Of a stretch of DNA of 64,000 nucleotides, positions 4,141-46,407 are shown in pieces. Position 1 is the stretch's first letter. Every line of letters begins with the position of its first letter. This stretch comes from Porodaedalea pini. Its lineage: Eukaryota > Basidiomycota > Agaricomycetes > Hymenochaetales > Hymenochaetaceae. The DNA lies in the NCBI GenBank assembly GCA_002794775.1, contig NBAY01000106.1, forward strand, positions 31,408-95,407, given 5' to 3'. The notes beneath the pieces were generated by a model. The model was not told the DNA's origin. It made no database searches and worked only from the letters and a program-made list of their open reading frames with translations. The translations under genes and the position numbers were made by a program.

Positions 4141-5127
4141 GACGTTTCACAGGCAGGTAGGGGACGATGGGTACGACGTGTGTGTGATGTTTGGGAGGAA
4201 TTGGATGTGTGAGTGGGGCACAGTGAAGGAAAGTGTGTACAGACCACAATGACACGATTACAGATGACAGTTCAATGGAAGCCAATGAAGGTTACCAGAC
4301 ACTCAAAACGTCGAAGTATACACAGAGTCGCCGCAAGACAGTGCTGGTCTGTTGGTCTGCTAAGACCCCGCAGGCACCGCTGACTGAGAGAGGCTCTAGG
4401 CTTAAGTGACACTCAAAAGAGCGTCACAATCAGCGAACTAAGGCTGAGCAGTCGAGCTTCACAGACGATAGGCTAGTCTGATCCAACAACAACAGAATGG
4501 GGTGAAATGGGCCTTAATCAACTCACACCAGAGCTGGTAACCGTGCAAAATGGGACACTGAGGGAGAACGAGTGGTGCGATTGCAATGCAAATCAACACA
4601 CACTGAGGAGGCGTGAACACGAGCACGCAGACGAAGTTTCGAGAGAATCGGACCAAGGGTTCCGCAGAAAATGCGATAACCACGCGATGCAGCAAAGTGC
4701 AGAGTGTAATAAGAGTGGTTGCTCAGTAAAACGTTGCAGCACACTCAAATCGAGTCGAATATCGATGTAAGTTGGCACAAACGTAGATCACACGTAACCC
4801 CAACAATGTGCCAAGGTATAGTGCGAACAGTCAAGCCAATATCGAGTGATGGGTGATAGAGAGGTTTTGGATGCAGGTGGTGAATGAATGCAGTGTAGTG
4901 CGATGGGAAGTGGATGTGGTGGCACGAAACTTGGCAGAGACGCGGCAGACACACCGATTTTCCAATCAACAAAGATCCAGCTCAATCCAACCACCAGGAA
5001 CATTGCAATCGGCGAAACACTGTGTGTAGGGTGTGCAGATCAGGTCCGATCAGTCTATAATTGAAGCAGGGGGTGCTTCTCGAAGTCCAGAACCAGTGTG
5101 CGAAGTTAGAGCGCAAGGCTCATAACC

Positions 5128-5585: not shown

Positions 5586-8500
5586 TTACCCCCCCTTCAA
5601 GGCTGGGCGTCCCGACCAGCCCAGATCGTGGTCATTTGGTTTGGTGTCAATGAAGAGTGGGCGGAGTCGTTGGCGAGGGATGTTGAGTTTTCGAGGAGCG
5701 CCAGGGTGTTTTCGATAGAACTCAGCGATCGCCTCCTTTGCGTTCTCGCTGAAGTCCATCTCAGGCTGCCAAGTCAGTTCGTTGTATCCAACCCACTTGA
5801 CAAGGTACTGTAGTTTCCCTCGGTGCAGTCGTGAGTCTAGAACCTCCTCGATCTCGTACTCCTCCTCGTTGTCGACGATGTCCGGTGGCGGCGGTGCTGG
5901 TTGTCTTTGGCTCTCGAAGGACGGTTTGACGGCAGGTTTTAGCAGGGCCTCATTGAAGACTGGGTGGACCTTTTTCCATCGCTTTGGGAGCTTGAGCTTG
6001 TACGCACTTGCTCCCACCTTGTCGACGATTTCGAAGGGCCCATACCATTTGTCAGCGAGTTTCTTTGTGGGCGAATCCGTGCTGATGTTTCGTCCGTCAA
6101 GGAAAGCCTTGTCTCCGGCTTTGTACTCAACCGAAATCCCTGCTGTCCGGTCATGGTAGCGTTTCATGTCGTCCGCCGCCTTGACCAGGTTGTCTTTTGC
6201 GACACAATGAGTCTCCTTTATGTGCTTCGCAAATTCTTCTGCCGACATGTTGGCAGACGAGGTTCGTGTCGTGTCAAAGCTCAAGGGGTGACGTCCTGTG
6301 TTCGCGTAGAAAGGGGACATCTTCGTTGCCGAGTGCTCACGGTTATTGTACGCGAACTCCGCGAGGGGGAGCCAGTCCTTCCAGTCCGATTGCCGATGGT
6401 TCACAAAGAGCCTAAGATACTGTTCAAGCTCTTGGTTAACGCGTTCCGTCTGGCCATCTGTCTGTGGGTGATATGCCGTTGACGGGTTGCCTTTGATGTG
6501 TAGGAGTTTGTACAGCTCCTTCATCATCGATGCAGCGAACTGCGTGCCTCGGTCATGGATGATTTTCTTTGGCAAGCCGTGGAGGCGAAAGACGTGGTCG
6601 CGGTACAGTTGAGCCATGCCTTCCACCGACAACCTTGTCGTCGTTGGGATCGCATGCATCTGTTTTGAGAACCTGTCCACAAAGACGCAGATCGCGTTAT
6701 GTCCTTTGGAGTCTGGGAGTTCTCCAATTAGGTCGACCGTGACGATTTCCCAAGGGCCTTCAGGGATAGCATTTGGATGGAGTGGTCTCGACCTTGATGC
6801 TCTTAAGGCTTTTGTCCATTGACAACGGTTGCATCCTCGGACATATGTTCGGACGTCGGAGAACATCGATGCCCACCAGAAATCACGGCGAACAAGCTCC
6901 ACTGTCTTTGACGCTCCTGGATGACCGGCCAACACTGAGTCGTGACACTCCCGCAACACGGCTTCCTTCATCGTCGATGGCACGTACACCTTGCCTTTCA
7001 TCCGCCATAACCCATCAACCTCTATCATACCCGTCGGCCTTTCCGACTCGCCCTGCGCTTTCTGTGCTTCAACCACTCGTCCTACCACCTCATCGCGCGA
7101 CGTCCGCACCACTCCACGGTTCAGCCACTTGTCCTTGATGAACACGACGCCGTCGTTGTCATCCTTGCCCTGATCGTAGCCCGCCATGCGCAACAGCAGG
7201 TCGGCCTTGCCCATCGTCTTCCCCGACTTGTGTTCGAGGTGGAAGTCGAATTCTTCAAGTTCGGTCCGCCAACGAGCTTGACGGTAGCTCAGCTTCTGTG
7301 CTGATCTGAAGTAGGTAAGGTTGGCGTGGTCGGACCAGATTTCAATCTTGTGGCGAGCGCCGAGGAGGTATTGTCGCCACTCCTTGAGCGCCGAAACGAT
7401 CACGAGCATCTCCTTGTCGTAGATCTCGTAGTTTCGTTCCGCTGGTTCGAGTGCCTCTGACCTGTAGGCGATCACCCTCCACTTTCCTTCCTGCTTCTGC
7501 AACAACACGCCGCCGAGTGCAAAGTTTGACGAGTCCGCCTCTACGCGGAAAGGGCCCTCGTCGTTGGCGATGGCTAGGACTGGAGGTGAGCAAAGACGTC
7601 GTCTCAGCTCCTCGAACGCTTCCTGCTGTTCGGTCTCCCATACCCAGTCTTTCTTGCCTGTTAACGATGTCAACGGTCGGACCACCTTACTGTAGTCCTT
7701 AATAAACCGTCTCAGCCAGTTTCCCATGCCAAGGAACTGTTGCAGCTCCTTGAGGTTTCGTGGGATAGGCCAGTTTGCAATCACCTCCGTCTTCGCCGGG
7801 TCAGCCCTGATCTCGCCATTGCCAATGATGTGACCGAGGTACTTGACGACTTTGGCATCGAATTCGCACTTCTCCGGCTTCAGGTACAGGCCGTTTTCTC
7901 GGAGGATCTGGAGTACGCGCCTTGACGTGTCGATATGTTCCTCAATGGTTTCTGAGAGGATCAGGATGTCGTCGAGGTATATGATGATCAGGTTAGCGTA
8001 GATCAGGTCCTTGAAGATGTGGTTGACAAAAGCCTGGAACGTGGCTGGCGCATTGCAAAGGCCAAAGAACATGACCGTCGGTTCGAAGAGGCCCATGTTC
8101 GTGCGAAACGCTGCCTTCCATTCGTCACCCTTGCGGATCCGGATATTGTAGTACCCCCAGCGAAGGTCCAGCTTAGTGATGTACTTCGCTTTCTTGACCT
8201 TGTCGACGAGTTCGTCGATGAGAGGGAGGGGATACTTGTTCTTGATTGTACCGTCATTGAGCTTTCGGTAATCCTGGATCGGGCATAGCGATTTGTCAGC
8301 CTTCTTGATGAAGAAGAAGGGTGACGCCATGGGTGATATCGACCTTCTGATACGACCAGACTTCAAATTCTCGTCGAGGAAGTCCTTTAGCGATTGTTGC
8401 TCAGTTGGCGTGAGTGGATAGATCTTGCAATCACTAGGTTTGAAGTTGGGTTTTAAGTCGATGACGTGGTCCCAGGGTCGATGTTCCGGCAGCTTTTCGA

Positions 8501-13351: not shown

Positions 13352-14037
13352 AAAGTATAAAAGATCATGGCCTTGTTGAATGAGAAGGAGGCTGCAGATG
13401 TCAACATGGAGAGAACTGGTTAAGCGTATCGCTAAATGTAAAGAAGATTGACCATGAATATCAAATGTATGTATTCGAGTAAAACAATGTACACATGGCT
13501 TCCTTAGACAAATAAATATGTACATGTAGCCTTGAAGAGTACTCGATCGGCTGCCAGCAGGCACCAAGAGTACGAAGTCTGGCACATATGATATATTTGC
13601 TCGGGTTAAATACTACCCAAAAATAGTGCACATCCTCCCCAAAAATATCACGATTACTGAGTTTACGAAGTATCGTCTTTTGTTGTGGGCAAAGATAAAG
13701 TCCCCAATTTGGGTTTTTGTCAGCTTCATAAGCTGATGGCATACCATATATGTTAATTTTGGACCCCATTTCTGCTAAATTGAGCAGTGGCTATGAGGCG
13801 ATACACAGCTTTTGTGGCTGTACAGTGCTCAGTTTCTTCATTGACATATTTAATTTTATTCAACCATCCAAATCACTAGCTTGAAGCATGTAAAAAAACT
13901 TCAGACAATTGTCTATCTGTCTATGTATTTTTTGTAAAATAAAGTGGCTTGGTTGAATTAAAAATCGGTCAAAAGCAAAGTTGACGACAGTGCCAACATG
14001 TGATCTCCAACCAGCGGGAGGCACCCTTGTGGTCGTT

Positions 14038-16290
14038 GACGAGTACCCTTGCCCCCGGCGAGCTCACGAACCTTCGCCTTCCCTCGCCTCCCTTCACTCC
14101 TCCAGCACTGCACTTTACCTTAGGATACTTATACACCGGCATGCTCAGCTTCAGCAACCATTCATATGACTTGGACACCGCTTTCACTATCCTGTGCTCC
14201 GCAAACTATCTTCAATTGCAAACGCTCCATGACAAGATGCAGGCACGCCTCGTGCAGGAGATGCTCCATGGGCTCTTCCACGCTTTCCTCGAATTTGCTG
14301 GGTATGAACGCATCATTGGAGGCCGCTGGGGCACAGGTGGGTGTTGCTGCCGCCAGTGTGCACGTCGTGCACCGCGTACGCTCGTCTTTTCCCTGCGTCC
14401 AGACGTGCAGAATACATACCTTAAGCGTGGCGCGCGGCGCGCCCTTGTTGGTCTTTTCGGAGAGGGCTGGTGCACTCCGGACTTCGCTGCACTCCCACTG
14501 ACGGGTTGATGACTGGCCTGAAGAAGCATGCGCTCCCGCAGAACGCATTTCCTTTGCTCTTCACTGCGCATGCGGCCTCAGTGAAGCTCAACTCTGTGCA
14601 AGACGCTTGGGTAGAGGGTATGAAAGAAATGGTTATGACAGCAAGGGGGTTTGTGGATGCTCTGCTTTGCAACGAGGCGGAGAAGTTTCAATGAGCGCAA
14701 GTGGGTCGAAATTATGGAGAATGATGGGCTAGGACGGTTTGAGGACGGGGAGCGCGTTGAGTGGGTTATGGAGGCTGTGCGGAGGGGCATGGCGGAGTCG
14801 AATGCTGGCATGCTCTGTCAGGTGAGTATTAAATTATAATCGGGTTTATTATTGTGCTCATTCCTTCGCAGACTCTCCTTTCCGCAATTCTTCTTCATCA
14901 GCACCCTACGGAACCAAGCGAGACCCTCTTATCAAGCATTTCCCACATCCGTGTGCAAGTTGAACAGACTCGTATGGATCTGCTTCGAAGGCGCTGGGTC
15001 GGTATCCGGAACGAGGGTGGCTTCGATGCGCTGGAAAGTTGGGCGATCAAGGAGATCAGCAATGGTAGGTCCGCGCTTCTCAAGGGTAAGGACTTTGCTA
15101 ATAACGACCTACAGAAATCAACATCCCGGTCGAATATCTTCTAACGCCGACGATGAGCAACTCCAACACGGTGCGTGGGCCGCTTACGCGAGCAGGCCTT
15201 CGCCCTACTCTCAGCAGGATCGAAGACACCACTGAGCGCGATAGCATGAGCACGTCGCATTCGCTTCGTACAAGCGTGTTGAACAAGAACCTTGCTCGCG
15301 GGAACACAGCTGTCACCTCGTCTAGCACATCTGTCCGGAGTGTAGCGTGCAGCGTTGCGTCGACGACTAGCCGAACGTCATTGCGCCTTACGACTGCGAC
15401 GGAGTGTGAACGTAAGGAGAGCCAGCCACACTCGAAGTTTGTGCCGTCCACCCGCGTAGCACGAGTCCAAGCGTCCATAGGGCAGCGAGTGCGCTCTCGT
15501 ATAATTCAGGTATGGACGTGGATGGAGAGCGTGACGAACAAGAAAGCCTGCGACTAAAGGGCTCGACCTCGTCCCTTGCGCGCTCTACCGCGTCATCTTC
15601 CGTGGTTTCTCGACGGCCCGGTGTAGCTTCTCGCTCTCCACACACAACTGGGAAAGACACAGGCGACACCGCGAGTGTCACGAGTGTAAAACTACTGAAC
15701 GTCGTCTCCGTGCAAAGACCAAAATCTGTCGCCGCTTCTGTTTCATCTACTCGTTCACATGCATCGACTATCCGCAGAAATGCCGCCACTGCAGGCCAGC
15801 AAGGTACTCTTCGTCCACCTCATCCGCCCTCGCGACCGGCATCCTCGCTCTCGAATGTGTCAATGTCCAGCAGCAGGAGCGGGGCTTCAACACGCGAGTC
15901 TACATTCAAGACGCCTCGTGAGAATATGACTCCGCGGGACTCTGTTACTTGGTCGAGGAAAGTCTTGACCACGTCATCGACCTCGATGTGCAGCACCGGA
16001 ACCTCAAGATCTCCGCAAACGCCGGTGCCTGCACTACGGAAAGGACGGCCATGTCGCGTCTCTGAAACAAGTGCGGTGCCAATTAGTACAGTAAACGCGG
16101 CATCGCGCACACGGAAGGTGTCGCCCATTACTACAGTATCTACGAAAGCAACAGCGAACAAGACGTCCGTCATTCGAAAGTCACCATCGGCGAATTCAAT
16201 TCGATCAACTGCATCTGTGGCAACAGCAGGAGGGAAGAAGACAGTGACGAAGAAGTCCCCTGCAGTTGATGAGAAGAAGCCTTCTCCGGC
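14038..16290 (+). pseudogene. BTB-BACK and Ser/Thr-rich linker of a BTB/CAP-Gly gene, broken
   Basis: The sequence enters in the middle of a BTB domain (LRLPSPPFTPPALHFTLGYL, LYTGMLSFSNHSYDL) and continues into a BACK-like helical region. An exon with a long Ser/Thr/Arg-rich linker follows (15512-16290, for example MSSSRSGASTRESTFKTPR). Introns with normal borders remain, such as GTGAGT at about 14821 and GTAGGT at about 15065. Breaks include a frame change around 14330-14510 and absence of the start codon and the first half of BTB, both present in copy 2 at 43200-43960. In an intact gene BTB would mediate dimerisation or cullin binding, and CAP-Gly would bind microtubules or EEY tails. The pairing suggests a cytoskeletal adaptor, which is inference. 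Confidence 0.75.
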
Positions 16291-18265
16291 GAGGCATCGC
16301 GTGCGACTTATGCCTTACTCCAGTACGTGTTTATCCACCTTTAACTCATTGTATCGTCGCTGATTGGTGTATTTTAGCCTCTCGTCTAAATCTTTCCGTC
16401 ACTCCACCGTATAACGCCGATTTCGATGGCGATGAGATGAACATGAAGTATGTCACTTTTAAGATCATCTTTGGTATCGTGGAGAAGAAGACGGTTGGAG
16501 CGTCGCAAGGCGGTCTTATCCACGTCGACTTTCACGAAAAAGGTCCCGAGGCGACTCGTACGCTGTTCACTGGTCTCCAGCAGATCGTTAATCACTGGCT
16601 GTTCCACAATGGATTCAGTATAGGCATTGGTGATACGGTCGCGGATGAAGACAATGGCGTACATCACGGATCAGATCAAGATGTGGAAGCAGAATGTCGT
16701 GCAGGCCATAGAAGATGCATCTAACGACCGTCTGAAAGCTGCACCGGGTATGACTATTCGCGAGTCGTTCGAGAGTTGAGTCGAACGCGAGCTCAACTTG
16801 GCGCGCGACCACTCCGGTCAGTACGCAGAGAACGTGAAGGAGGACAACAATGTCAAAGAGATGGTTGTCGCGGGTTCGAAGGGTTCGTTCATTAACGTCT
16901 CGCAGATGTCCGTCTGTGTTGGTCAGCAGGCCGTTGAAGGGAAGCAAATCCCGTTTGGCTTCAGGCATCGCACACCACCTCACTTTACGAAGGACGACTT
17001 CAGCCCAGAGGCGCGCGGCTTCATTGAGAACTCGTATCTTCGCGGATTAACTCCGCAACAGTTTTTCTTCCACGCTATGGCTGGTCGTGAAGGTTTGATT
17101 GATACCGCTGTCAAGACGGGCGAGACTGGTTACATTCAGCATCGACTTGTAAAGGCACTCGAAGACGTGGCTGTCTGCTACGACAGGACTGTACGAAACT
17201 CACTGGGTGACCTGATCCAATTCGTGTATGGCGAGGATGGTATGGACGGTGCTTTTATTGAACGGCAAACGATCAAAAGGTTCGGTATCAATGATCGCGA
17301 GTTCGAACATCACTATCAGGTCGACGTCACTGACCTGAAGGGTGGATTCCTTCCTGGTGTTTTGCAAGTCGGTATCGACGACTCATCCCTCGAGCTCCGG
17401 CAAAAACCCGACGAGGAATATGACCGTCTTCATGAGGATCGTAAATTGCCCCGTGAATTCATTTTCCCGGGCCGTGACAATTCCGCTGCCCACTATCTTC
17501 CTGCCAACCTGAACCGCATCGTGCAGAACGCAACGCAGATTTTCCATATCGACCGCAGAAAACCGAGCGATCTGGAGCCGGTTTACATCATTGAGCAGGT
17601 GCAGCAGCTGGCAGACCGCCTCATCGTTGTGCGCGGCGATGATCTTTTAATAAAGGAGGCTGCCGAGAACGCTTCTGTTGCATTCCGCATGCACCTTCGG
17701 GCGACTTTTGTCGCGCGTCCAGTCCTAGAGTTCCATCTCAACAAGTAAGCATTTGACTGAGTATTGGGCGAGATGGAGACGAAGTTCAACCAGTCGGTCG
17801 CTCATCCGGGCAAGATGTGCGGCACACTCGCTGCCCAGTCGATTCGTGAGCCGGCGACGCAGATGACACTAAATACGTTCCATTACGCTGGTGTTTCGAG
17901 TAAAAACGTCACGTTCGGTGTTAACGTCGCCGCGAATATCAAGACTCCGTCGCTCACAATATACCTGGACCCAGAAATTGCTGCTGTCGACACAAGGGCC
18001 AAGTCGGTGCAAACAGAACTTGCGTACACATCGCTGCGTACCGTTACAGCAGCGGTCGAGATCCACCATGATCCTGATTCAAGTCCGACGATCATTGAGG
18101 AGGATAAGGAGTTTGTTGATGCATTCTTCGCCAAGTCCGACGAGGAAACTGAGTTGGGTCTTCATCTTCAGTCGCCATGGCTACTTTGTCTTGAGCTCGG
18201 TCGCTCGAAGATGCTTGACAGGAAACTTACGATGAACTACGTTGCTGGCCGTATCGCGGAAAGCT
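16291..18265 (+). pseudogene. RPB1: RPB1 (RNA polymerase II largest subunit) fragment, copy 1
   Basis: This is an internal RPB1 piece running from HRVRLMPYS through the catalytic loop [11 protein letters not shown] (about 16414-16446) to [16 protein letters not shown], that is, from the active site to the foot/cleft region. Recognisable blocks include [55 protein letters not shown] and [13 protein letters not shown]. The first intron (GTACGT to TTTTAG, 16324-16377) is retained. It is not functional. A deletion removes about 80 codons after the catalytic loop, 2 nt are lost near 16648, and stops stand at 16777, 17746 and 17758. There is no start and no C-terminal heptad repeat domain. Both ends join BTB/CAP-Gly sequence. 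Confidence 0.93.
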
Positions 18266-19012
18266 TTGCCATTGCCAAAAATGCCATCTAAGGAAAATAT
18301 CAATTTTGAAGATCCTCCCAATACAGGCAGTACATTGACGATTAAAGGGAAGGGGAAGGGGAAAGGGCGGGCGGATGCCATCATCGCAGACGACAGATCT
18401 CTGCGATCGAGCGACAACGGATCAAATACGACTCTCGCTACATTGCGGCACAAGGAATCGAATGACACCATTACCCTCAATCGAGTGCCTGTGGGGGAGA
18501 CGGTGTCTGCAGGCGAGACGGTCATGCTGCAACCCCATGGTGCTACATTGGACATCGGCATTCCATGTATCATTACTTCAAAGTGGAAGCGGTTCCGTGT
18601 GTTTGCCCATTATATCGGCGAGGTTGAGGGTGAGAGCGGGCCATGGGTCGGTGTAGAGGTGCCTGTGGGCGATGCTTAGGCAGACGATCAGCTCGAGGGC
18701 CACCAGTGGAATGACGGCTCATGGGGTGGCGTGCGCTACTTTGACGTCGGGACTTTGGCATCAGAATGGGGCGACGACGAATGCATGACCTGCCGGCAAC
18801 GCATTGATGTGACGAATAACTATGGCACTAGCGTTATTAGTGGCTGGAAGGGCACGAAGCGTGAGGGGGAGCAGCTCAGCGTTGACCGCAAGAAGTGTTT
18901 CCGTAGCGCGTCGCCGTCGGTGTCGGACGTGTCGAACGCGGAGTATCGAGGTCTCTTTGTGAGGCCACAGCAGGTGCTGTATGTTGTAGATGCTGTCGGT
19001 TCGGGCTTGTGA
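18266..19012 (+). pseudogene. CAP-Gly domain end of the BTB/CAP-Gly gene, with nonsense codon
   Basis: Reading [17 protein letters not shown], then a lysine/glycine-rich spacer, then a CAP-Gly domain: FAHYIGEVEGESGPWVGVEV, WNDGSWGGVRYFDVG and RGLFVRPQQVLYVVD match the usual glycine-rich scaffold. A TAG at 18677-18679, explained by CAG to TAG, cuts the domain in the middle. The reading frame is otherwise open to the TGA at 19010-19012. The domain also carries an extra segment of about 60 residues before RGLFVRP. Copy 2 has no CAP-Gly part. Confidence 0.75.
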
Positions 19013-19073
19013 ACCTTGGAACATATTTAAGTTCAGATTCCTGCCCCTTTTCTTTTTCTTTCTTTCTTTCTTT

Positions 19074-19255
19074 TACTTGAGGTAGTGGGCCATTGGGATG
19101 GCAAGCTACGATTACTGTTTTCTGTGTCTTTCATTTTATATGAGAAGACTAAAGCTTGAAAGTTATACTAAAACATTATTCTCATTAGTGAATTATTTAC
19201 TATTCAGTAAACAGTAATCGTAGCTTGCCATCCCAATGGCCCACTACCTCAAGTA
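19074..19255. mobile_element. 182-bp inverted-repeat (MITE-like) element
   Basis: Arms 19074-19120 and 19209-19255 are perfect 47-nt inverted repeats (TACTTGAGGTAGTGGGCCAT and onward) around an AT-rich centre of 88 bp with no coding capacity. Counting the outermost TA on each side as a TA target duplication gives an element starting CTTGAGGTAG. It sits exactly between the broken CAP-Gly piece and the truncated KDZ remnant. Confidence 0.7.
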
Positions 19256-24041: not shown

Positions 24042-25028
24042 GGTTATGAGCCTTGCGCTCTAACTTCGCACACTGGTTCTGGACTTCGAGAAGCACCCCC
24101 TGCTTCAATTATAGACTGATCGGACCTGATCTGCACACCCTACACACAGTGTTTCGCCGATTGCAATGTTCCTGGTGGTTGGATTGAGCTGGATCTTTGT
24201 TGATTGGAAAATCGGTGTGTCTGCCGCGTCTCTGCCAAGTTTCGTGCCACCACATCCACTTCCCATCGCACTACACTGCATTCATTCACCACCTGCATCC
24301 AAAACCTCTCTATCACCCATCACTCGATATTGGCTTGACTGTTCGCACTATACCTTGGCACATTGTTGGGGTTACGTGTGATCTACGTTTGTGCCAACTT
24401 ACATCGATATTCGACTCGATTTGAGTGTGCTGCAACGTTTTACTGAGCAACCACTCTTATTACACTCTGCACTTTGCTGCATCGCGTGGTTATCGCATTT
24501 TCTGCGGAACCCTTGGTCCGATTCTCTCGAAACTTCGTCTGCGTGCTCGTGTTCACGCCTCCTCAGTGTGTGTTGATTTGCATTGCAATCGCACCACTCG
24601 TTCTCCCTCAGTGTCCCATTTTGCACGGTTACCAGCTCTGGTGTGAGTTGATTAAGGCCCATTTCACCCCATTCTGTTGTTGTTGGATCAGACTAGCCTA
24701 TCGTCTGTGAAGCTCGACTGCTCAGCCTTAGTTCGCTGATTGTGACGCTCTTTTGAGTGTCACTTAAGCCTAGAGCCTCTCTCAGTCAGCGGTGCCTGCG
24801 GGGTCTTAGCAGACCAACAGACCAGCACTGTCTTGCGGCGACTCTGTGTATACTTCGACGTTTTGAGTGTCTGGTAACCTTCATTGGCTTCCATTGAACT
24901 GTCATCTGTAATCGTGTCATTGTGGTCTGTACACACTTTCCTTCACTGTGCCCCACTCACACATCCAATTCCTCCCAAACATCACACACACGTCGTACCC
25001 ATCGTCCCCTACCTGCCTGTGAAACGTC

Positions 25029-27167
25029 ATGTCCAAATCTGCCCCTGCCGACTCACTGTCTTCATTTAACAAGTTGGGTGAAGGCAACTATCCTACTTGG
25101 AAATTCGACATGCAGGCTGCCCTTCAGTACAAGAAGCTTTGGCGCCTCGTTTCAGGCAAGGAGTCGAAGCCATCTTCTCCTCCTGATAAAGTCGAACTCT
25201 GGGAAGAAAGGGCTGAGCAAGCAGCCGGCCTTATCTACCAGAAACTCAAAAACAGCATGCAGATTTTGGTACAATCACACATGGGTGACCCTGTAGAGAT
25301 GTGGAAAGCGCTCGAGAAACTGCACAAGCAGGACAACCCAGCTGCACGTTTTATTGCCTATGACGAGTTTTTCGGTATCAGCAAGAAGGAGGATGAGTCT
25401 TTGACCGCACTAGTCAGCAGAGTTGAGCATGGACTTCATAACATCAGAAATACACGCACTAGCACTCTCAAACTCGAAGAGTTTGAGGATGAGCTTGCAT
25501 GTGTTGCCCTGGTTCGCTCCCTGCCTGAAGAGTACTCATCCTTCCGCTCTGCACTCTTGCTCCTGACAGATTTCAAGTTAAAGACGCTTAAGGAAGCATT
25601 TATGCAGGAGCAAATGAACTGTCAATCGCGTGCTGGTGATCAGTCCATGGCCCTGAAAGCGTCCTCTGCTCCCTCTAAGCCTTCCTCATCGTCTCAGCCT
25701 GTTGTCTGCGAATTTTGCGGCATTAAAGGTCATCCAGAGTCGAAGTGCTTCAAGAGACGTGATGCAATTGAGGCAATTAGGGCCAAGAGGAAGGATAACA
25801 AAGGGAAGACTAAGGAGAAAGCACAATCTGCTCAGCAGGACGACTCCGAGTCTGTCCAATCTGCTGAATTTGCTGGAAATGCAAGTACCTCAGACTTCAC
25901 CAACCCCCATACACCCCTCATTCTCGATGCAGGAACTGATTGGATCGTTGATACAGGTGCCACTTGCCACATGACACCCCACCGACACTGGTTTCACAAA
26001 TATTCACCAAATCGCACCCCTATACGCCTTGCAAACAACGAAATCATCTATTCTGTTGGAGTGGGCACAGTGCGATTTCAACCAGTAATCAATGGCAAAG
26101 ATGGACACTTACTTGAATTTGAACGTGTACTTCATGTCCCTGATTTGCGAAACAATCTCCTCTCAGTCCTGTATTTAACTCGTGCCAAATCGTATATTGT
26201 CACCATTCAGCGTGATAAAATTCTATTCAATCGAAATGGCACTCTCCTCTTCACTGCAAATGTCACTCCCAACAATGCTGCATCACTCAATGGCCAAGTC
26301 GTACCCATGAGTGCATTCTCTGCACTTACAAGCACTTGTCCACTTGATTTGACTCTGTGGCATCGACATTTTGCACACCTACACCATGGTGATGTGAAGA
26401 AACTGCTCAATGAGCATTTAGTTGAGGGAATGGTGATTAAGTCAAAGGACTTGCCAGATCCGATCTGTGAGCCTTGCATTGCAGGCAAACAGCATCGTTC
26501 TAATGTCTCAAAACTTGCATCGCATCGTGCATCAAGTCTTCTTCAATTGGTTCACTCAGATGTGCATGGTCCTCTTCCCATTCAGTCAAGGAATGGTTAC
26601 AAGTACTGGATCACCTTCATTGATGATTTCAGTTGCTTCTGGGCAGTTTTGCCTTTGAAGAAGAAGAGTGACACTTTTAGTGCTTTTAAGCATTTTAAGG
26701 CATATGCAGAGAATCAGTTAGATTTGAACATTAAGGCCACTCGTGATGATAAGGGAGGAGAATACATGCCAAAGGAATGGGATCAACTCTGTGAAAATGA
26801 AGGCATTCATCGCCAGCACACTGTCAGAAATGAACCCCACCAAAATGGTGTTGCTGAACGCGCAAACAGGACGTTAGCTGAGGGCATCACCACTATGCTG
26901 AATGAAGCACACTTACCTGCTACTTTCTGGTGGGATGCAGTTGCTGCTTTTGTTCATGTCCATAATCGCTCTCCTACATCTGCGGTGAATGACAACACAC
27001 CCTATCAACTCTGGTACAAGTCTAAACCAGATGTTTCTCATTTTCGCGTTTTTGGCTCAACGCAAACAGTTGCAATCCCACACACAGAAATGTGTCTTCC
27101 TTGGCTACCCTGCAAATTACAAAGGATGGCTATTCTGGAACCCTGTTACACACAAGGAGATCATTAG
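25029..27167 (+). CDS. copia gag-protease-integrase polyprotein, copy B
   Basis: A 712-codon frame starting MSKSAPADSLSSF. The gag region spans residues 1-220, with a CCHC knuckle at about 227-240. The protease motif DWIVDTGATCH lies at about residue 305. The integrase zinc-binding region, DDE-type core and HQNGVAERANR complete the frame. It departs from the copia consensus after HFRVFGST, where the sequence normally linking integrase to KCVFLGYP is short by several residues. KCVFLGYP itself is found in the overlapping +1 frame. The ATG sits about 990 bp after the LTR. Confidence 0.92.
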   Translation: MSKSAPADSLSSFNKLGEGNYPTWKFDMQAALQYKKLWRLVSGKESKPSSPPDKVELWEERAEQAAGLIYQKLKNSMQILVQSHMGDPVEMWKALEKLHKQDNPAARFIAYDEFFGISKKEDESLTALVSRVEHGLHNIRNTRTSTLKLEEFEDELACVALVRSLPEEYSSFRSALLLLTDFKLKTLKEAFMQEQMNCQSRAGDQSMALKASSAPSKPSSSSQPVVCEFCGIKGHPESKCFKRRDAIEAIRAKRKDNKGKTKEKAQSAQQDDSESVQSAEFAGNASTSDFTNPHTPLILDAGTDWIVDTGATCHMTPHRHWFHKYSPNRTPIRLANNEIIYSVGVGTVRFQPVINGKDGHLLEFERVLHVPDLRNNLLSVLYLTRAKSYIVTIQRDKILFNRNGTLLFTANVTPNNAASLNGQVVPMSAFSALTSTCPLDLTLWHRHFAHLHHGDVKKLLNEHLVEGMVIKSKDLPDPICEPCIAGKQHRSNVSKLASHRASSLLQLVHSDVHGPLPIQSRNGYKYWITFIDDFSCFWAVLPLKKKSDTFSAFKHFKAYAENQLDLNIKATRDDKGGEYMPKEWDQLCENEGIHRQHTVRNEPHQNGVAERANRTLAEGITTMLNEAHLPATFWWDAVAAFVHVHNRSPTSAVNDNTPYQLWYKSKPDVSHFRVFGSTQTVAIPHTEMCLPWLPCKLQRMAILEPCYTQGDH

Positions 27168-37060: not shown

Positions 37061-37560
37061 GGGCCATCCCTGGATTATTATTTCTGGGCGATCCCTGAGT
37101 TATTATCTCTGGGCTATCCCTATGAAATTATCTCTGGGCTATCCCTGGATTATTATCTCTGGGCTATCCCTGAATTATTATCTCTGGGCCATCCCTGAGT
37201 TATGATCTCTGGGCCATCCCTGAGTTATGATCTCTGGGCCATCCCTGAGTTATGATCTCTGGGCTATCCCTGAGTTATTATCTCTGGGCTATCCCTGAGT
37301 TATTATCTCTGGGCTATCCCTGCATTATTATCTCTGGGCCATCCCTGGATTATTATCTCTGGGCTATCCCTGAGTTATTATCTCTGGGCTATCCCTGCAT
37401 TATTATCTCTGGGCCATCCCTGCATTATTATCTCTGGGCCATCCCTGAGTTATGATCTCTGGGCTATCCCTATGAAATTATGTCTGGGCTATCCCTCTGT
37501 ATTTATATCTGGGCTATCCCTGGGTTATTATCTCTGAGCTATCCCCATAGATATGAGATA
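37061..37560 (+). repeat. 25-bp minisatellite, 20 units
   Basis: Twenty tandem units in strict 25-bp register, consensus GGGCTATCCCTGAGTTATTATCTCT. Each unit start falls at 37061 plus a multiple of 25, through 37536. Units vary by substitutions only (GGGCCATCC, GGATTATTA, TATGAAATT and others), and I see no indels. An apparent reading frame through part of it is a by-product of periodicity. Confidence 0.95.
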
Positions 37561-38400
37561 CATATACTTATCAGTTAAAGTCATTCCTAGGTATTCTAAA
37601 TCATAATAATTAAGAACATGGGTGTATTCTATAAATTACAGAGGCTCAATCTCTGTTGTTATCACTGAGGTCATCATTTCTCAAAGTTCTACTTGTGGTC
37701 ATGCTATATAGAGATTAAAAGAGGACTTTTCTTATATTCAAAGCTAGAGATGTGTAGCCATATCATATCTGTTGTCATACAAATATCCAGTGAAGCTGAA
37801 TCTATGATAATATTCAAAGAGTAGCAGCTGCCTAGTATGTATAAAGTGGCCATGCACAAGGCCAAGCATTAAATGCATCACAACTGTTCAAAACTAACAT
37901 GGGATTGCTAATTTAAGCCCTAAAATATCAATTTTTTAATATAAAACTAGGTTGAAATTACCTGGGGAAATCCCAGTGAAAAGTCCCCCTGGCACCCAGT
38001 GACAACAGAGGGACAGCCCTATGGTAACTGCGCTAATAGGTATTAACTTACAGGAACATCCCCTGCCCTGGGACATCCCAGACTATATATATACATATCA
38101 GGACAGGCACCTTTAGGTGTAACTCAATTGGGCTAAGTTACACCTAAGAGGTCTGGGTAAAAGGGGTACCTGAAGTGATTTTTACCTTTTGCAGACACGT
38201 TTGGCAACCGTCCTCCTTGAACGTGAAAACGTGTACAGACACACGTTTCATCCTCTCTGCTAACTCTCTTGAAATTTACTGCTAGTTCTGGGCTTCTTCA
38301 AGAAATTGCCTCGGCCTTTACCGATGCCAGACGACGGCAAAGCCATTACCCTTCATTCCGACGATGAAGACCGGATACCCCCCATTCCGAAGGCTGCCAG
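37561..38400. other. AT-rich region without recognised gene; one hairpin
   Basis: No gene is supported. At about 38113-38147 the inverted repeat TTAGGTGTAACT / AGTTACACCTAA around an 11-nt loop could form a hairpin. A short plus-strand frame at 38306-38494 (MPDDGKAITLHSDDEDRIPP) has coding-like composition, but I cannot place it. Confidence 0.45.
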
Positions 38401-38491
38401 CGTCTTTAATTCATTTCCCGTGTGTAAAGCTGTGGATGGGCTTTGCAAATCTCCACGCAGTAATGATGCAGATGCAGTTCTGACATGCCGA

Positions 38492-39290
38492 TGAGCACGC
38501 CGATATGTGCGAAGATATACTGCAATGCATCCGCCAGTTGGAAGGCATCTACATTGCCAAGCCGGAATTGGACGTGCGCATTGACAACGAGCTTTGTGAG
38601 GCGACGAGTTTCACGGCACAAATGGAATGCATTTTCAAAGTGAGACTTTTTGCGTTCCTTCGTCGTGAGCGCCTTTACCGGCTTCAGATTCATGTTGTAA
38701 TCGAGATGAAGGTAATTCAAGTTCTAGAAGGATTGGAAGTCAGAATGATATAACGCAGCTTTCCCAACGATCATACCTTGCGATGGATGAGCAACTTCAG
38801 CGTGTTGTATCCTTGCCCGCACACTTGCAAACCAGCCTCCACCCAGTCCAGCTTTGTGGTCTGGAAGAACTTCGTCGCCTTCAACTGACGGAACAGGTTC
38901 TTTTTCGTCATCGGCTTCTCCGGCCTCGTCTTCAGCTCGTTGAGAACAAAGCACTTGAGCAGCTTCTGGTACGACATGCGAACCTTTACAGGCTGGTTCG
39001 ATGGGTGGTGCTCCAAGTACCAAATCTTCACCAATGGTACATCTTGCGCGCAGCGCATGTGTCCCGAGCGGTGACTGTAAGGCTCCGGCGTCCACCATAA
39101 AGCAATACCGTCCGCAGTGCTCTCCTTCTCCAAATCCTTATCCGAGAGGAATGGCTCAACCTCATCTGGTAGCTCGAATCCATCCTCGTCCGCGCCGTTG
39201 GGTCCGAAGATTTCGTCCTCGTGAGAAACGAGAGGCGCATTCTTTGGTTGGAAACCATGAGAGGAGACAGGGTTTGCAAGGTTGAACAGA
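38492..39290 (-). pseudogene. PRP8: PRP8 (spliceosome core) fragment
   Basis: Two exon pieces of PRP8 on the minus strand. The first (39290-38775) includes [84 protein letters not shown] and [19 protein letters not shown]. An intron with an AG acceptor near 38733 is retained. The second has [44 protein letters not shown] and [20 protein letters not shown]. It then diverges from PRP8 at about 38500. Intact PRP8 exceeds 2,300 residues. This is an internal slice of roughly 260, with substitutions at conserved positions (for example CGQ for CRQ). It lies in the same orientation as the eIF4G and RPB1 pieces upstream. Confidence 0.93.
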
Positions 39291-39514
39291 CAGATAGGAA
39301 AGTGGCTGAAGGAACAAAATTGCAGCAACAAAAACAATAAATGAGGAACAACAGAGTATGTATTTTAAAAAAGTTAGTCAGAGAAGCCAGAAGAGGCACG
39401 ACGGGGTAAAGAGGTTATGAAGGCGCAGGAAAACGGGCAGAGGGCAGGGAGGTGAGAATGGAATGACAATGACGAGAAGAGGAGATAGATTGCCTGATGA
39501 GTAAGTATAAAGTC

Positions 39515-41193
39515 ACAAACAAAATCTGAGCTAAAAAAGCAAGAAGCTCGTCGCTGTCCATTGACTTGCTTGATACATGCGTCCGTCGTTCCTCATCTAG
39601 CTTCGCGCCCTATATCATCGTCGCTATAAGAATGAAAGCCTTAGACGCATCAATCGCGATGCCGTCGAGAAGTTCCGCGACAGGCAGGAAGCCCTCCTCG
39701 AAGGATGCGGGTGAACAGAGATTCCGCGATAGAGCACGCGAAAACAGGTCGGCAATGGGTTTGGCATCAGCCTCCTTCGCCTCGATAACAGACATGTCAA
39801 AATTCTCGACGAGAATATGTCGATGCTCCAAGGGAAGTGCAGAGAAATACTCTTCCGCCTCGTCGAGATCGCAGAAAGCGAAGAACTCCTTGCGGTCTTG
39901 GTCAATCTTCTTTTCCGCCTGCTCCTTCAACATCGACGGTTTCCTAGAGTCCTTCTCGAGGATCTCGCCCTCCTCGCCCCCCTCACCATTCTAAGCCTCA
40001 GCGGGACTATCCTCCGACTTCTCCTGTACAGGCTTCAAACGCGGAAGCAGGTTGAGTCTGGGATGCTGAGCAGGCTGGGCAGGTTCCACAGGTGCATTGT
40101 GGGTCAAGTCGACGCTCATTGTACGGCTTGACGGGCGGCTTGGACGAGACGAGAATGTAGTAAGAGTCTCATTAGCGGCCTTAGCGGCCTGCAGCATCTG
40201 GAACATGTTCGTGTACTCGAACTTGTCCTTGAAAGGCTCGCACTATCGCGCTTGCTGTCTCCCTTCTTCGTGAAGGCGTTAGCTGGTCCAAAGTTCGTGG
40301 CGCCACTACCCTTCTGAATCTTGCCGAAGCTCGTCAGATCGCTCGCCTTGTTGGCAGGCCTCGAAGGACCAGAGGCAACGACCCATCCGTCGGGACCTAC
40401 TTGAGCCTTGCCGTCACGATCATGGCCACGGCGTAAATCACCACGAGACATTGCTGAGCATGCCAAGTTATGTTACTCCTGTTGCGCCTTCTCTTTCGCA
40501 GCCTGTATATTTGGTAAGCACGAGTGAAACTGAATAACAAAGCAAGAGCGCGTACCGCGTCATGAATCTGAGCGATTGAGCAGCGACTAAGTTGCGGGTA
40601 GTTCATTTCCTTTCCCGCAATTCAATCACATCTTGTCCAAGAAAGTCAGCTCAACGAAAGGCTATGAAGCAGAAGGCACACACCTGTAACATGAGCTACA
40701 TATGAGACGACACGTTGCTGCTCTTTGCAAGCTCCTTCGTGCGACTGAAGTAGACGTTCACGTGTCCGCGAGCCTGAGAGGTATCGAGCGCCTGACCAAC
40801 AGTTGTGGGGACTTTATATAAGCTTTCGATCTCTTGATACATTCAAGCATGATACGATCCGTGAGCATCTGAAGCTTGAAGAGCTCACCAATGAACTTGA
40901 CAAATCCGAGGCCTTGACGCTTGGCCTTCTGAGCAGCGTAGTATTTGTCCGAATACAGCGCACTCTCGCCAGCCTCCTTGTTTTCCTCTTTTCATTGGTA
41001 ACCTTAAGAACCTGATCCTCTGTCGCCTTCACGAGAGCCGCTGCCGCTGTCGACTCCTTCTGCGTCCGGCCGCGCCCGAAGCCTTCCTGACAGCGATTCA
41101 GAAGGTAGTTACGGAAAAGCAGACCACCTGTAATCGGCTTGCCGTCAGCATTGCGGATACCATCATCCTGCACGTTCGGGCTGATCTGTTCCA
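39515..41193 (-). pseudogene. eIF4G: eIF4G fragment (MIF4G end to C-terminal MA3 region)
   Basis: On the minus strand the piece begins at [18 protein letters not shown] (MIF4G domain) and continues [17 protein letters not shown]. After frame changes come [40 protein letters not shown] and DVIELRERK. Then come MSRGDLRRGHDRDG, VGPDGWVVASG, and the MA3 domain (FCDLDEAEEYFSALPLEHRH, IEAKEADAKPIADLFSRALS, LCSPASFEEGFLPVAELLD). It ends with KSMDSDELLAFLAQIL near 39515. Several frameshifts, an in-frame TAG near 39992 and a lost segment of about 20 codons in MIF4G show it is dead. Introns are retained. It joins RPB1 upstream without any spacer. Confidence 0.9.
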
Positions 41194-42474
41194 TCAGGTC
41201 ACCCAGTGACTTTCGTACAGTCCCGTCGTAGCAGACAGCCACGTCTTCGAGTGCCTTTACAAGTCGATGCTGAATGTAACCAGTCTCGGCCGTCTTGACA
41301 GCGATATCGATCAAACCTTCGCGACCAGCCATAGCGTGGAAGAAAAACTCTTGCGGAGTTAATCCACGAAGATACGAGTTCTCAACGAAACCGCGCGTCT
41401 CTGGGCTGAAGTCATCCTTCGTAAAGTGAGGTAGTGTGCGATGCCTGAAGCCAAACGGGATTCGCTTCCCTTCAACGGACTGCTGACCAACACAGACGGT
41501 CATCTGCGAGATGTTAATGAACGAACCCTTCGAACCCGCGACAACCATCTGTTTGACACCGGAGTGGTCATGCGCCAAGTTGAGCTCATGTTCGACTCGA
41601 CTCTCGAACGACTCGCGAATAGCCATACCCGGTGCAGCTTTCAGACGGTCGTTAGATGCATCTTCAATGGCCTGCACGACATTCCGCTTTCGCACCTTGA
41701 TCTGCTCCGTAATGTACGCCATTGTCTTCTTATCCGCGACCGTATCACCAATGCGTATATTCAATCCATTGTGGAAAAGCCAGTAATTAACGATCTCATG
41801 GAGACCAGTGAACAGTGTACGAGTCGCCTCAGGACCTCTTTCGCGAAAGTCGACGTGGATAAGACCGCCTTGCGACGCTCCAACCGTCTTTTTCTCCACG
41901 ATACCAAAGATGATCTCGCCGTTTTCAATGAGCATGCCATCATCGAAAACGGGGCTCGAAGATTTCGGATCAGGCGAGCGATATATGTTTATTCCACGAG
42001 GAATCGTCATGTTAAGAATCTGTTTGCCCGTCCATAATGGCTTCGGCTTTAAGATCGCCGGCGTCGGAATCGTGCCGTCCCAGTCCGGCACCCACAGCAG
42101 GATGTTTTGCACCTGCACCCAGTCGAGGAAGCTATCCCGCAGAGTGAATTTCCGGATACCGCACGACGTGTCCTGTATGATGCCCACAACAGGTTTGTTC
42201 GCCTGTAGCGAGATGATCTGCTTCGCAACCCATGCAATCTCACTGAGCTCGGCTCTCGTCTCTTCGCTCTAGACGGAGCTGAGAAAGAGATGTAAGGCTA
42301 ATCTTAAGAGTGACATACTGCATGTTCATCTCATCGCCAACGAAATCGGCGTTATACGGTGGAGTGACAGAAAGATTTAGACGAAAGGCTAAAATACACT
42401 AATCAGCGACCATACAATGAGTTAAAGGTGGATAAACACGTACTAGAGTAAGGCATAAGTCGCACGCGATGCCT
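41194..42474 (-). pseudogene. RPB1: RPB1 fragment, copy 2
   Basis: Runs from [10 protein letters not shown] to TVRKSLGDL. It keeps the region that copy 1 deleted: [55 protein letters not shown] and [18 protein letters not shown]. Two RPB1 introns remain near 42377-42443 and 42285-42324. The active-site loop reads [11 protein letters not shown]: the second metal-binding Asp is Val (codon at 42339-42341). A TAG stands at 42269-42271 where CAG is expected, and the segment [11 protein letters not shown] is missing. The sequence crosses into eIF4G after SLGDL. Confidence 0.93.
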
Positions 42475-43960
42475 CGCTGGAGAAAGCTTCTTCTCATCTG
42501 CAGGGGACCTCTTCGTCGCTGTCTTCTTCCCTCCAGCTGTTGCCGCAGATGAAATTAATCGAATTGAATTCGCCAACGGTGACTTTCGAATGACGGACGT
42601 CTTGTTCGCTGTTGTTTTCGTAGGTACTGTAGTAATGGGCGACACCTTCCGTGTGCGAGATGCTGAGCTTATCGTACTAATTGGCGCCGCATTAGTTTCA
42701 GAGACGCGACGCGGCCGTCCTTTCGGTAGCGCAGGCGCCCGCGTTTGCGGAGATCTTGAGGTTCCGGTGCTGTGCATCGAGGTCGTCGACGTGGTCGAGA
42801 CTTTTCTCGACCGAGTAACAGAGTCGCGCGGAGTCATATTCTCGCGAGCCGTCTTGAATGTAGACTCGCGTGTTGAAGCCCCGCTCCTGCTGCTGGACAT
42901 TGACACATTCGGTCGCGAGGATGTTGGTCGCAAAGGCAGATGAGGTGGACAGGATAGCGAAAGCGGTGTTCAAATCATATGAACGGTTGCTGAAGCTGAG
43001 CGTGCCGGTGTATAAGTATCCCAAGGTAAAGTACAGTGCTGGAGGAGTGAAGGGAGGCGAGGGAAGGCGAAGGGTCGTGAGCTTGCCGGGAGCAGGGGTA
43101 TTCTTGAGATCATAAGTGATGAGTTGATCGTAGAAATATGGCGCACGCGTTACAAGAACGAATCGATGCGAGCAGAAGACAGCGGTCACCTCTTCTTCAT
43201 TGGAAGGAGCACCTACTGTTGGCATATCGCTGCGTAGTTCAATGCAAACGTCAGAATACAGACGAGACCTCCACAAGAACACAAGGTCCTTCCGAAGCTT
43301 GTCGACGCGCACCTCTTCTACATCGGCATCGCCTTCCGGGCCCTTCTCATTCGCATCGAACAAAAACTCAAAAGCATCTCCAAATCCCCTTCCTGTATAG
43401 AGACACTCGAGCTCGTTGGTGAATAGCACGGTATTATGGTTGAGAGATATGCGCGAGAGGGAGCCGATTGCAGAGGACGCAGGGGAGATAGGTCAGAGCT
43501 GGGAAGGTGAAGTGGAGCGCATGGAGGCCGGGTAGGGGAACTCAACGCCAAGGTTTTGAGAGAGTGCAGATGTCGTCGGCATTGGAAGAGACGGTGTCTG
43601 AGAGGCAGCGAAAGGAAGTGGGGATGCGATAGGTGCTGGGCAGAATGTGAAATAGCGTGCTTGGAAACCGGGTGGTGCAGGAGCATAAACGATAGCTAGC
43701 ATTTGTTAGTCTCAAGGACAGGTGGTAGGTTCTGCGCTTGTGCCCACCTTTATGTCCCCAACCCTCCGAGTCCGCGTTGCTGCCTTCGTCCATTGCGTCC
43801 TCATCCAGTAGATCCCAGATGACGTCTGGGAAGTGATCTTTCATGCGATGAAAGAGTGATTGGAGGTCCTCTTGCCATGCTGTCGTCGACCTTTTTGTTG
43901 CCTCGAGCAGTGCGGGTGGGCAGGCAGGCAGCTGTGACGGGACGGCTACGGTGAGAAGCA
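42475..43960 (-). pseudogene. BTB part and linker of the BTB/CAP-Gly gene, copy 2
   Basis: The N-terminal exons absent from copy 1 are here: WQEDLQSLFHRMKDHFPDVI, an intron, then APAPPGFQARYFTFCPAP, then ELECLYTGRGFGDAFEFLF. The BTB domain follows (SRLYSDVCIELRSDM, FCSHRFVLVTRAPYFYDQL, FTLGYLYTGTLSFSNRSYDL). It is cut after NTAFAIL, and the frame passes directly into the Ser/Thr-rich linker (QQERGF, then in another frame MSSSRSGASTRESTFKTAR). About 1.6 kb of BACK and linker present in copy 1 is therefore missing. A TGA at 43492-43494 lies in the N-terminal exon, again explained by CGA to TGA. The linker ends at the RPB1 junction at 42474. Confidence 0.8.
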
Positions 43961-44286
43961 GTGATGTAGTGTGATTAAGAAAAAAGTAGAGAAATCCCAA
44001 GAGAAATTTGAAGGAGACAATTCAGCTCAAGTGTACCTCCCACTGAGGAACATATGAGGGAGCGAAGCGAGTGTCTTTGCTGCAGCGAAACGGACTCGTC
44101 GACAACCGCAAGTCTGCTGAGGTTGGAGATCACATGTTGGCACTGTCGTCAACTCTGCTTTCGACCGTTTTTTAATTCAAGTAGGCCACTTTATTTTACA
44201 AAAAATACATAGACAGATAGAGAATTGTCTGAAGTTTTTTTAAATGCTTCAAGCTTGAGAATTGGATGGTTGAATAAAATAAAATA

Positions 44287-45803
44287 AGGTATGCAAAAGT
44301 TAAACTCGACAAGCTGATGTCACGTCACAGTCACAGACCCTGAACCACTCGCTTACCCCATTAGGAAGGACCCTAGTGCGAAAATCGTGAGTTCAGAAAA
44401 TCAAATTGTTTTGTAGATTCCCTGCATGATCACTGTAGGACTTCAGGTACAGTTGTTCAGTATTTTCTGAGTTATTATCACTACCAGCATGCTCAATTTG
44501 TCTTTGTGAGCTATAGTACAGTATCAATTTTGTAAGGTAGACGAAAGTTAAACTCGACAAGCTGTGACGCGTGTGGCGCTAACCTCACTTGCCTAATCTG
44601 GCTTCACACAACATCGACGAAACTGCCTCGTCAACTGGACACAAGATCAAAATTGAGCCTCACAGAGTTGTTGGGGTTGCATTTACCTACAAACCTGTGT
44701 TTTTAAAATTTAGAAATAATAACTTTTGATGATTTTATAAGAAGAAAAAAGTTTTTTTGTTGCAAATGCATCAGATTTTACTTTGCAACAATCTGATGAA
44801 ATTTTGAAATTTTGACCACGGAAGTTTGGCCGCTCTCGGCTAATTCTCTATGACAAATAACTTTCTTTTATAGTAGTTTTAGACAATTACTAATTGTGCA
44901 TATCCTCAGCATTTTCTCCCCTTCAACACTGCCTTGCCACAAAAAAGCACTATGCCACACCATTCAAACAAGGATTACAAGGATAGACCTAATAATGAAA
45001 AGGAGATGGAGCAGAACATAAAAATTTGCCTTGACCAAATCCCTTTGGAACTATTCAAACAGTGTGTTTTTATTTATTTACCAATTACCAGTTCAAGACA
45101 TTGATATTTATTTAGCTTTGCTAACCGCTCAGAGCGGTTCATGGATTGTTACCATCATGGATTGAATGGGAAACAGGCACAGTGGGCAAACAAAAAATAC
45201 CATGGCCACAGAACACTACCAGATAGATTTATGACAGGGATGGAGGTTCATGGAATATAACAAATGTATTTCTCATTCTACAACAGCTAACAAAACTTTT
45301 CAAATTTTTGACCTCACGATTTTGGCCGCTAGGGTCCTTCCTAATGGGGTAAGCAAGGGGTTCAGGGTCCGTGACAGTGATGTGACATCAGCTTGTCGAG
45401 TTTAACTTTCGTCTACCTTAGCAGTGCAGAAGAATTGCTAAGCATGATTAATAATAAAGAGAACCTACTATATTTGGAACATATTAATCATATAAAATTA
45501 GCCAAGAGCGCGAAAATTGATGGGTGAAAATTTCAAAAATCTGCCAGAGTACGGTACAATTAAATATGGGGCATTTGGCACAAAAAAGACTTTTGTAAAA
45601 TAAGTCATCCAAAAATCTATTTTTCAAAAATTTAAGACCACAGAAATGTAGACAACAACTGTCCCAACAGTTCTGTGAGGATTGTTTGTAAATTTGTGCC
45701 CAGCTGAAGATGTTGTTTTGTCGACATCGAGTGAAGCCAGATTAGGCAAGTAAGGTTAGCGCCACCCACGTCACACCTTGTCGAGTTTAACTTTCGCATA
45801 CCT
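44287..45803. mobile_element. TIR element with TA target duplication, containing a second one
   Basis: Outer ends are AGGTATGC...GCATACCT with TA on both sides (44285-44286, 45804-45805). Copy 1 at 13847-13848 has the uninterrupted site with a single TA, which proves the insertion. The shared terminal repeat is about 30 bp (GTTAAACTCGACAAG inside it). Beyond it the two ends differ. The interior, AT-rich with no transposase frame, is non-autonomous. Without the nested element the outer one would be about 631 bp. Confidence 0.9.
44535..45418. mobile_element. nested, reversed relative of the TIR element
   Basis: Ends AGGTAGAC...GTCTACCT with TA on both sides (44533-44534, 45419-45420). Its left subterminal sequence (GTGACGCGTGTGGCGCTAAC) matches the right end of the outer element. 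Its right subterminal sequence matches the outer left end (GACCCTGAACC, TTACCCCATTAGGAAGGACC). The inner element is therefore the same family inserted in opposite orientation. Confidence 0.85.
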
Positions 45804-46407
45804 TATGTCAATGAAGAAAGTGAGCACTGTACAGCCACAAAAGCAGTGAACAACTTCATCGCCACTGCTCAATTTAGCAGAAAAGGGGTCCAAAATTAAC
45901 ATATATGGTATGCCATCAGCTTATAAAAGCTGACAAAACCCCAAATTGGGGACTTTATCTTTGCCCACAACAAAAGACGATACTTCGTAAACTCAGTAAT
46001 CGTAATCGATGTGAAAAGAACTACTTGCATCTGTGATGTCTTGAACAAGTCATTATTTGTGAAAATGACAGTCAACTCACACATCATACAAGAAATGAGC
46101 ATGAAAGTCCAGGCCCTATTATACACAAGAGTTGGTAGACATGGCAGCTCTCGATTGGCGGCATGAGACAAGGCACAGAAGAAAATAAGAAGGGAAAGTA
46201 AACTAGAAGAGGTTCAAGGAGCGGATAAATCGTTGATTCAGAGGGAAACAGAGAAGAGGAGGCAGAAAGAACAGAATAGACAAGAACGAAAGACACGAAA
46301 CACGGGAGCCCTTCCCCTTCACTACCCATTCACTATGCTTTCATGCTCACGCGCCAGGTCATAATTCTCTTTTCCATCGTGGATGGATATACAATTCGAA
46401 TTGCGGT

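Follow-up and report, generated by a model that had tools for sequence, protein, structure and literature searches.

Gene-piece collecting by Helitrons is well known in maize, according to the accessible part of the maize study (PMC3288121), and is little reported in the fungal studies consulted. The FoHeli elements of Fusarium oxysporum, which belong to Helitron2, carry asymmetric inverted repeats, of which the 3′ copy stands some 20-40 bases inside the tip, and their 27 putative captures were judged not important in the portion of that paper available to us (PMC5148889). For a reverse-coded open reading frame, a precedent exists in a Helentron of D. ananassae (PMC4067079, available in part). 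We found no multi-gene host capture by a fungal Helitron in the open PMC library; one may exist in print elsewhere.

Here we analysed a 64,000-base stretch of the Porodaedalea pini genome (the window; contig NBAY01000106.1, positions 31,408 to 95,407), in which pieces of several host genes lie in a row on the minus strand at 38483-44050. We consider it highly probable that this array is cargo of a family of Helitron-superfamily (rolling-circle) transposons that has been widely copied in the genome. A sequence-only reading had named PRP8, eIF4G, RPB1 and BTB as the sources, and Pfam and PDB matches together with DNA alignment upheld all four identities and their common strand. The PRP8 piece (38483-39274) matched PROCN (E 1.1e-44) and PDB PRP8 chains (E to 2.2e-97). 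It adjoins the eIF4G piece (39275-41196), which aligns with a donor-like gene elsewhere in the genome and extends beyond a frame whose MA3 match falls just below the cut-off (E 1.3e-4, 22.3 bits versus 23.2). The RPB1 piece (41193-42360) holds Pfam domains 3-5, with E values from 7e-35 to 1e-24, and matched PDB RPB1 at E 1.3e-147, and the N-terminal side of the BTB gene (42951-44050) gave a Pfam BTB match above the cut-off (E 5.2e-5, 23.8 bits versus 20.5). Corrections were needed. A Ser-rich gene piece with no Pfam match lies between RPB1 and BTB on the same minus strand (about 42400-42950), and the unit does not stop at 38492 and 43960, where it had been drawn, but runs over about 38179-46005.

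The RPB1 piece retains a readable GT...AG intron at about 42279-42318, so the proposal of capture from DNA was borne out. The donor-like gene for eIF4G (locus L020) has frames carrying the Pfam domains eIF_4G1, MIF4G and MA3, and it is 88.5% identical to the captured piece over an alignment of 1,970 columns that includes 51 gap columns; we take it as the putative donor or a descendant of the donor. Intact donor genes of RPB1, PRP8 and BTB were looked for and not found. Of 21 sequences examined, namely the window stretch and 20 loci, the same five carry both eIF4G junctions, which indicates that these junctions arose once and were copied afterwards. The five sequences have different surroundings, which counters a local assembly chimera, a possibility the sequence-only reading had raised. 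At the join between eIF4G and RPB1, the bases ATCA (41193-41196) are common to both pieces and shared with both parents. The join at 42950 was read as a probable deletion: four other loci (L011, L022, L027 and L028) hold both of its sides 1.1-1.6 kb apart, and the two sides share AC. Against a deletion, the window's Pfam BTB stretch crosses the join, and Pfam recognised no domain in the frame on the BTB side of L022. Other copies carry additional cargo, namely RPB1 domains 5-7, more of PRP8 and a CAP-Gly piece (27.7 bits versus a cut-off of 26.5).

Nor is the array unique: its 5,469-base stretch has at least 95 genome matches on at least 30 contigs, with 40 of 348 candidates scored. Of 20 loci that were compared, 19 match the element; the remaining one is L020, the eIF4G gene. 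On contig C37, the copy L009 agrees with the window copy at 99.7% over 6,357 bases and at 98.0% over a further 611, and the flanks of the two are unrelated beyond the first bases after one shared end. In those first bases (window 46006-46029, L009 8917-8940) 19 of 24 positions match, which may reflect target preference or something else. From this identity and from the ends described below, we place a putatively non-autonomous and recent Helitron-type element at 38179-46005, on the minus strand of the gene pieces; its left limit is inferred, as homology with L009 starts at 38178 and the A there is taken as host by analogy. The terminal region common to the copies comprises 45804-46005 together with 44051-44286, again on the minus strand. 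The intervening 44287-45803, outside the array proper, is a nested TIR element between TA dinucleotides that other copies lack; it contains a second, related TIR element (44535-45418), also between TA dinucleotides and absent from L009, which has the empty site. At the opposite side lies an extra piece (38179-38482) that, of all loci examined, the window copy and L009 alone carry.

The window holds a second copy of the family at 13648-19253, with its gene pieces on the plus strand. Beside the array-bearing element, at 37080-37540, lies a minisatellite whose repeat unit (ctgggctatccctgagttattatct) measures about 24 bases. Two 714-codon frames with the same start and opposite orientation (2005-4146 on the minus strand and 25023-27164 on the plus strand) are probably an inverted retrotransposon pair.

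The sequence-only reading had suggested looking for multiple copies that have their outer ends in common, and one such end was found. Homology among the copies ends exactly at 46005, after a 27-base motif (45979-46005, minus strand) that reads GATACTTCGTAAACTCAGTAATCGTAA on the plus strand and TTACGATTACTGAGTTTAC on the gene strand. This motif had 110 genome occurrences with at most two mismatches, and its reversed control had none. In the loci examined, 22 distinct sequences follow the constant end, one of which (L028) merely repeats the end in tandem; the other 21 start with T in 14 cases, C in 6 and A in 1, so T after the insertion point is a preference. The seven flanks without T count against a Helitron. 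On the reverse strand of L028, near 8155-8227, the terminal 23 bases of the constant end form a tandem repeat of three units.

The other end is variable. In L010, L013, L014, L015, L016, L024, L026 and the second window copy (constant end 13648, palindrome 19075-19253) it consists of a palindrome some 180 bases long, CTTGAGG...CCTCAAG; L014 and L016 are incomplete at the constant end, and in a related insertion on contig C5 the palindrome's first arm alone was read. The base before the palindrome tip was A in 27 of 27 places, both arms counted, and the point at which the palindrome joins the element body varies from copy to copy. A different variable end, at about 38179, is present in the window copy and L009. 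The left limit of L012 was dropped as a candidate end, since the sequence there matches other copies. On the gene strand the tips read TTACG... and ...CTCAAG, and on the other strand CTTGAG... and ...CGTAA. Near 1751-2815 of oriented L014, close to the constant end, lies a 355-codon frame with no Pfam match, which is reminiscent of the cysteine-protease-like protein of some Helitrons.

Two insertions, of 5.7 and 6.3 kb, could be compared with intact empty sites. Both stand directly after an A, one in an A|T and one in an A|C target, with a one-base ambiguity of that A at both sites that counts against a Helitron. The L024 insertion lies inside a retrotransposon gag frame; a 30-mer of its rejoined flanks occurred at 20 genomic places, 4 of them exact, versus none for the reversed control. 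The C5 element (1415773-1422095, its interior read in part) lies inside an RPB1 fragment, and its flanks, the right one being L031, rejoin exactly as GCAGA|CAGCCAC, as in uninterrupted copies. The target duplications that had been hoped for were absent at both empty sites, which fits Helitrons. These sites also bear on the idea that the copies are old segmental duplications, or products of recombination between repeat-rich contig ends, and that the array itself was never transposed. Copies do cluster on certain contigs, and L021 shares flanks with L025 and L023 with L024; against this stand the exact same end before 21 different sequences and the two exact empty sites, and we regard such an origin as scarcely credible.

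The vehicle of the array had been called unknown, and it had been ranked as a candidate for an undescribed mobile system. Neither description held: beside the repeat with its constant end at 46005, matches to Rep and helicase adjoin the same cargo elsewhere in the genome, pointing to a vehicle of a known kind, the Helitron superfamily, which had been among the candidates named. Helitron_like_N was matched 10 times, on 8 contigs, each of which is also among those with matches to the array. PIF1 helicase gave 14 matches and, at 6 of the 8 Rep contigs, lies 2.1-3.9 kb downstream of Rep on the same strand. Its distance to a 301-base PRP8 piece is nearly fixed, at 4,470 bases on C5, 4,470 on C37, 4,435 on C79, 4,473 on C54 and 4,467 on C159, although C159 has no Rep match. 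From these pieces we infer a putative autonomous RepHel element of the family. Some observations count against a Helitron: on C77 and C105 Rep stands without a PIF1 match, the spacing is 8.1 kb on C128, the 301-base PRP8 piece is missing at that place on C62, and the canonical Helitron1 ends (5′ TC, 3′ CTRR) are absent in either polarity. On C54, DUF6570 lies ahead of Rep and a further PRP8 piece lies ahead of DUF6570 (312 residues ahead of Rep were read). PRP8 pieces flank RepHel on either side, a layout for which simple 3′ read-through does not account and which also counts against the model. The region ahead of Rep on C54 is split by an 850-base palindromic element (L046 1023-1874) that has dozens of copies in the genome.

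It might instead be argued that a TIR transposon of the Pack type, or one of the LINE type, carried the fragments, the 180-base palindrome being the end of a MITE. The palindrome tip is indeed frequent (99 forward and 107 reverse occurrences genome-wide, at most two mismatches) and is present at some sites where the array is lacking, L022 and L023 among them, and the pairing of one constant with one variable end resembles a LINE. Yet Pack-type elements have TIRs at both tips and a target duplication, whereas the tips here are not inverted copies of each other and neither empty site shows a duplication; introns are kept, and RepHel domains lie at a fixed distance from the cargo. The palindrome as an unrelated nested MITE was dropped for L024 and the C5 element, where the flanks rejoin around the whole unit, and a LINE-type model with a constant 3′ and a variable 5′ end was dropped in view of the empty sites and the RepHel linkage. 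A reverse-transcriptase partner was likewise rejected, as the genome has many such matches and none was tied to the family. Taken together, these points make carriage by a TIR or LINE-type element very unlikely. Among the RVT_1 matches, some lie in unusually long open frames (C55:286699, 4256 codons; C151:10977, 3659; C185:11271, 3499).

With a Helitron-type element as the preferred vehicle, we examined its polarity. We lean towards a constant 5′ end and a variable, often palindromic, 3′ end on the gene strand, with RepHel coded on the opposite strand. The palindrome-ended copies have the layout of Helitron2 and Helentrons, in which asymmetric inverted repeats are combined with a hairpin near the 3′ end. 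In L024, the constant-end sequence recurs inverted 31 bases from the palindromic tip, with a score reached by 1 of 2,000 shuffles, and is followed by a hairpin of −9.2 kcal/mol, which stops 6 bases short of the tip. On this reading the genes would be cargo in sense orientation, bounded by a 5′ end that is fixed and by 3′ ends that change, which matches the expectation of the end-bypass model. The same element could be read the other way round, with the constant end as 3′ terminus, RepHel in sense and the gene pieces as cargo in antisense, in the direction of the 3′ end. In favour of this, the usual coding direction of RepHel is 5′ to 3′, and Rep and PIF1 are on the plus strand when the constant end is taken as reference. 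A weak hairpin (−4.1 kcal/mol) can form from the final 30 bases of that end in two of the three copies folded, the window copy and L015. However, the hairpin is lost in L024 (−0.0), although L024 is a clean insertion, the asymmetric repeats and hairpin suit the polarity that we favour, and reverse-coded frames have precedents in FoHeli4/5 and the D. ananassae Helentron, according to the available parts of those reports. We therefore hold the reversed polarity to be possible but somewhat doubtful.

Whether the cargo works was addressed with the RPB1 pieces. At least one stop was present in 18 of 20 aligned pieces, and the median pairwise dN/dS was 0.71 (170 of 190 pairs, those with dS > 0.03), so a working RPB1 piece was rejected. 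The 20 sequences include several near-identical copies, and dN/dS between the window and the others was 0.30 to 0.73 (leaving out L009, dS 0.005); these pieces may thus show inherited constraint. The simplest reading is that the cargo is probably decaying passenger DNA, most of it already decayed.

In the mechanism that we propose, RepHel would nick one strand and copy the element by rolling-circle replication, at times passing the normal terminator into host genes. New pieces would be joined at short microhomologies and travel with later copies, and rounds of capture and deletion could have yielded the order PRP8-eIF4G-RPB1-X-BTB. A more speculative idea, which we think quite unlikely, is that a one-strand cassette of pieces of essential genes (PRP8 and RPB1, with eIF4G in one branch) is the standing cargo of the lineage, carried even next to RepHel, and is kept because it helps the element, for example by making homology-based silencing costly for the host, and that the palindromic end is a module that can be joined to truncated bodies and so remobilise them. 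The donor-like gene, the common junctions and the exact empty sites would make the family well suited to working out the order of the captures and to studying how Helitrons acquire new ends.

Among described systems, as far as the available text of each source goes, the family resembles Helitron2/FoHeli in its asymmetric inverted repeats, its hairpin, its lack of canonical ends and its putative Rep and helicase, and some FoHeli members, such as FoHeli4/5, also have reversed frames. It differs in its terminal sequences and its target; FoHeli1/2 target TNAT and T, FoHeli elements measure about 5-6 kb, and no array of housekeeping genes is reported for them (PMC5148889). Like Helentrons and HINEs, it has subterminal inverted repeats that stand close to the 5′ tip but at a greater distance from the 3′ one, and a palindrome near the 3′ end; like proto-Helentron-Pi, it starts with TT and inserts between A and T. 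Helentrons have a TT target and an endonuclease, whereas the empty sites here are A|T or A|C, and the proto-Helentron ends in CTAG, whereas this family ends in CAAG (PMC4067079). HELPO of Pleurotus ostreatus, whose host is probably related in kind to the one studied here, shares AT insertion, RepHel and extra genes downstream of RepHel, but has near-canonical ends, and in the available text no capture is reported, either of host genes or of their fragments (PMC4289320). Maize Helitrons, in a plant rather than a fungus, likewise carry several gene fragments per element, captured stepwise and also present in putative autonomous members (PMC3288121). With its high copy number and pieces of five identified genes (PRP8, RPB1, eIF4G, BTB and CAP-Gly), the present family would be a counter-example among fungal Helitrons; the unusual part is the multi-gene capture in a fungal Helitron, and not a new system.
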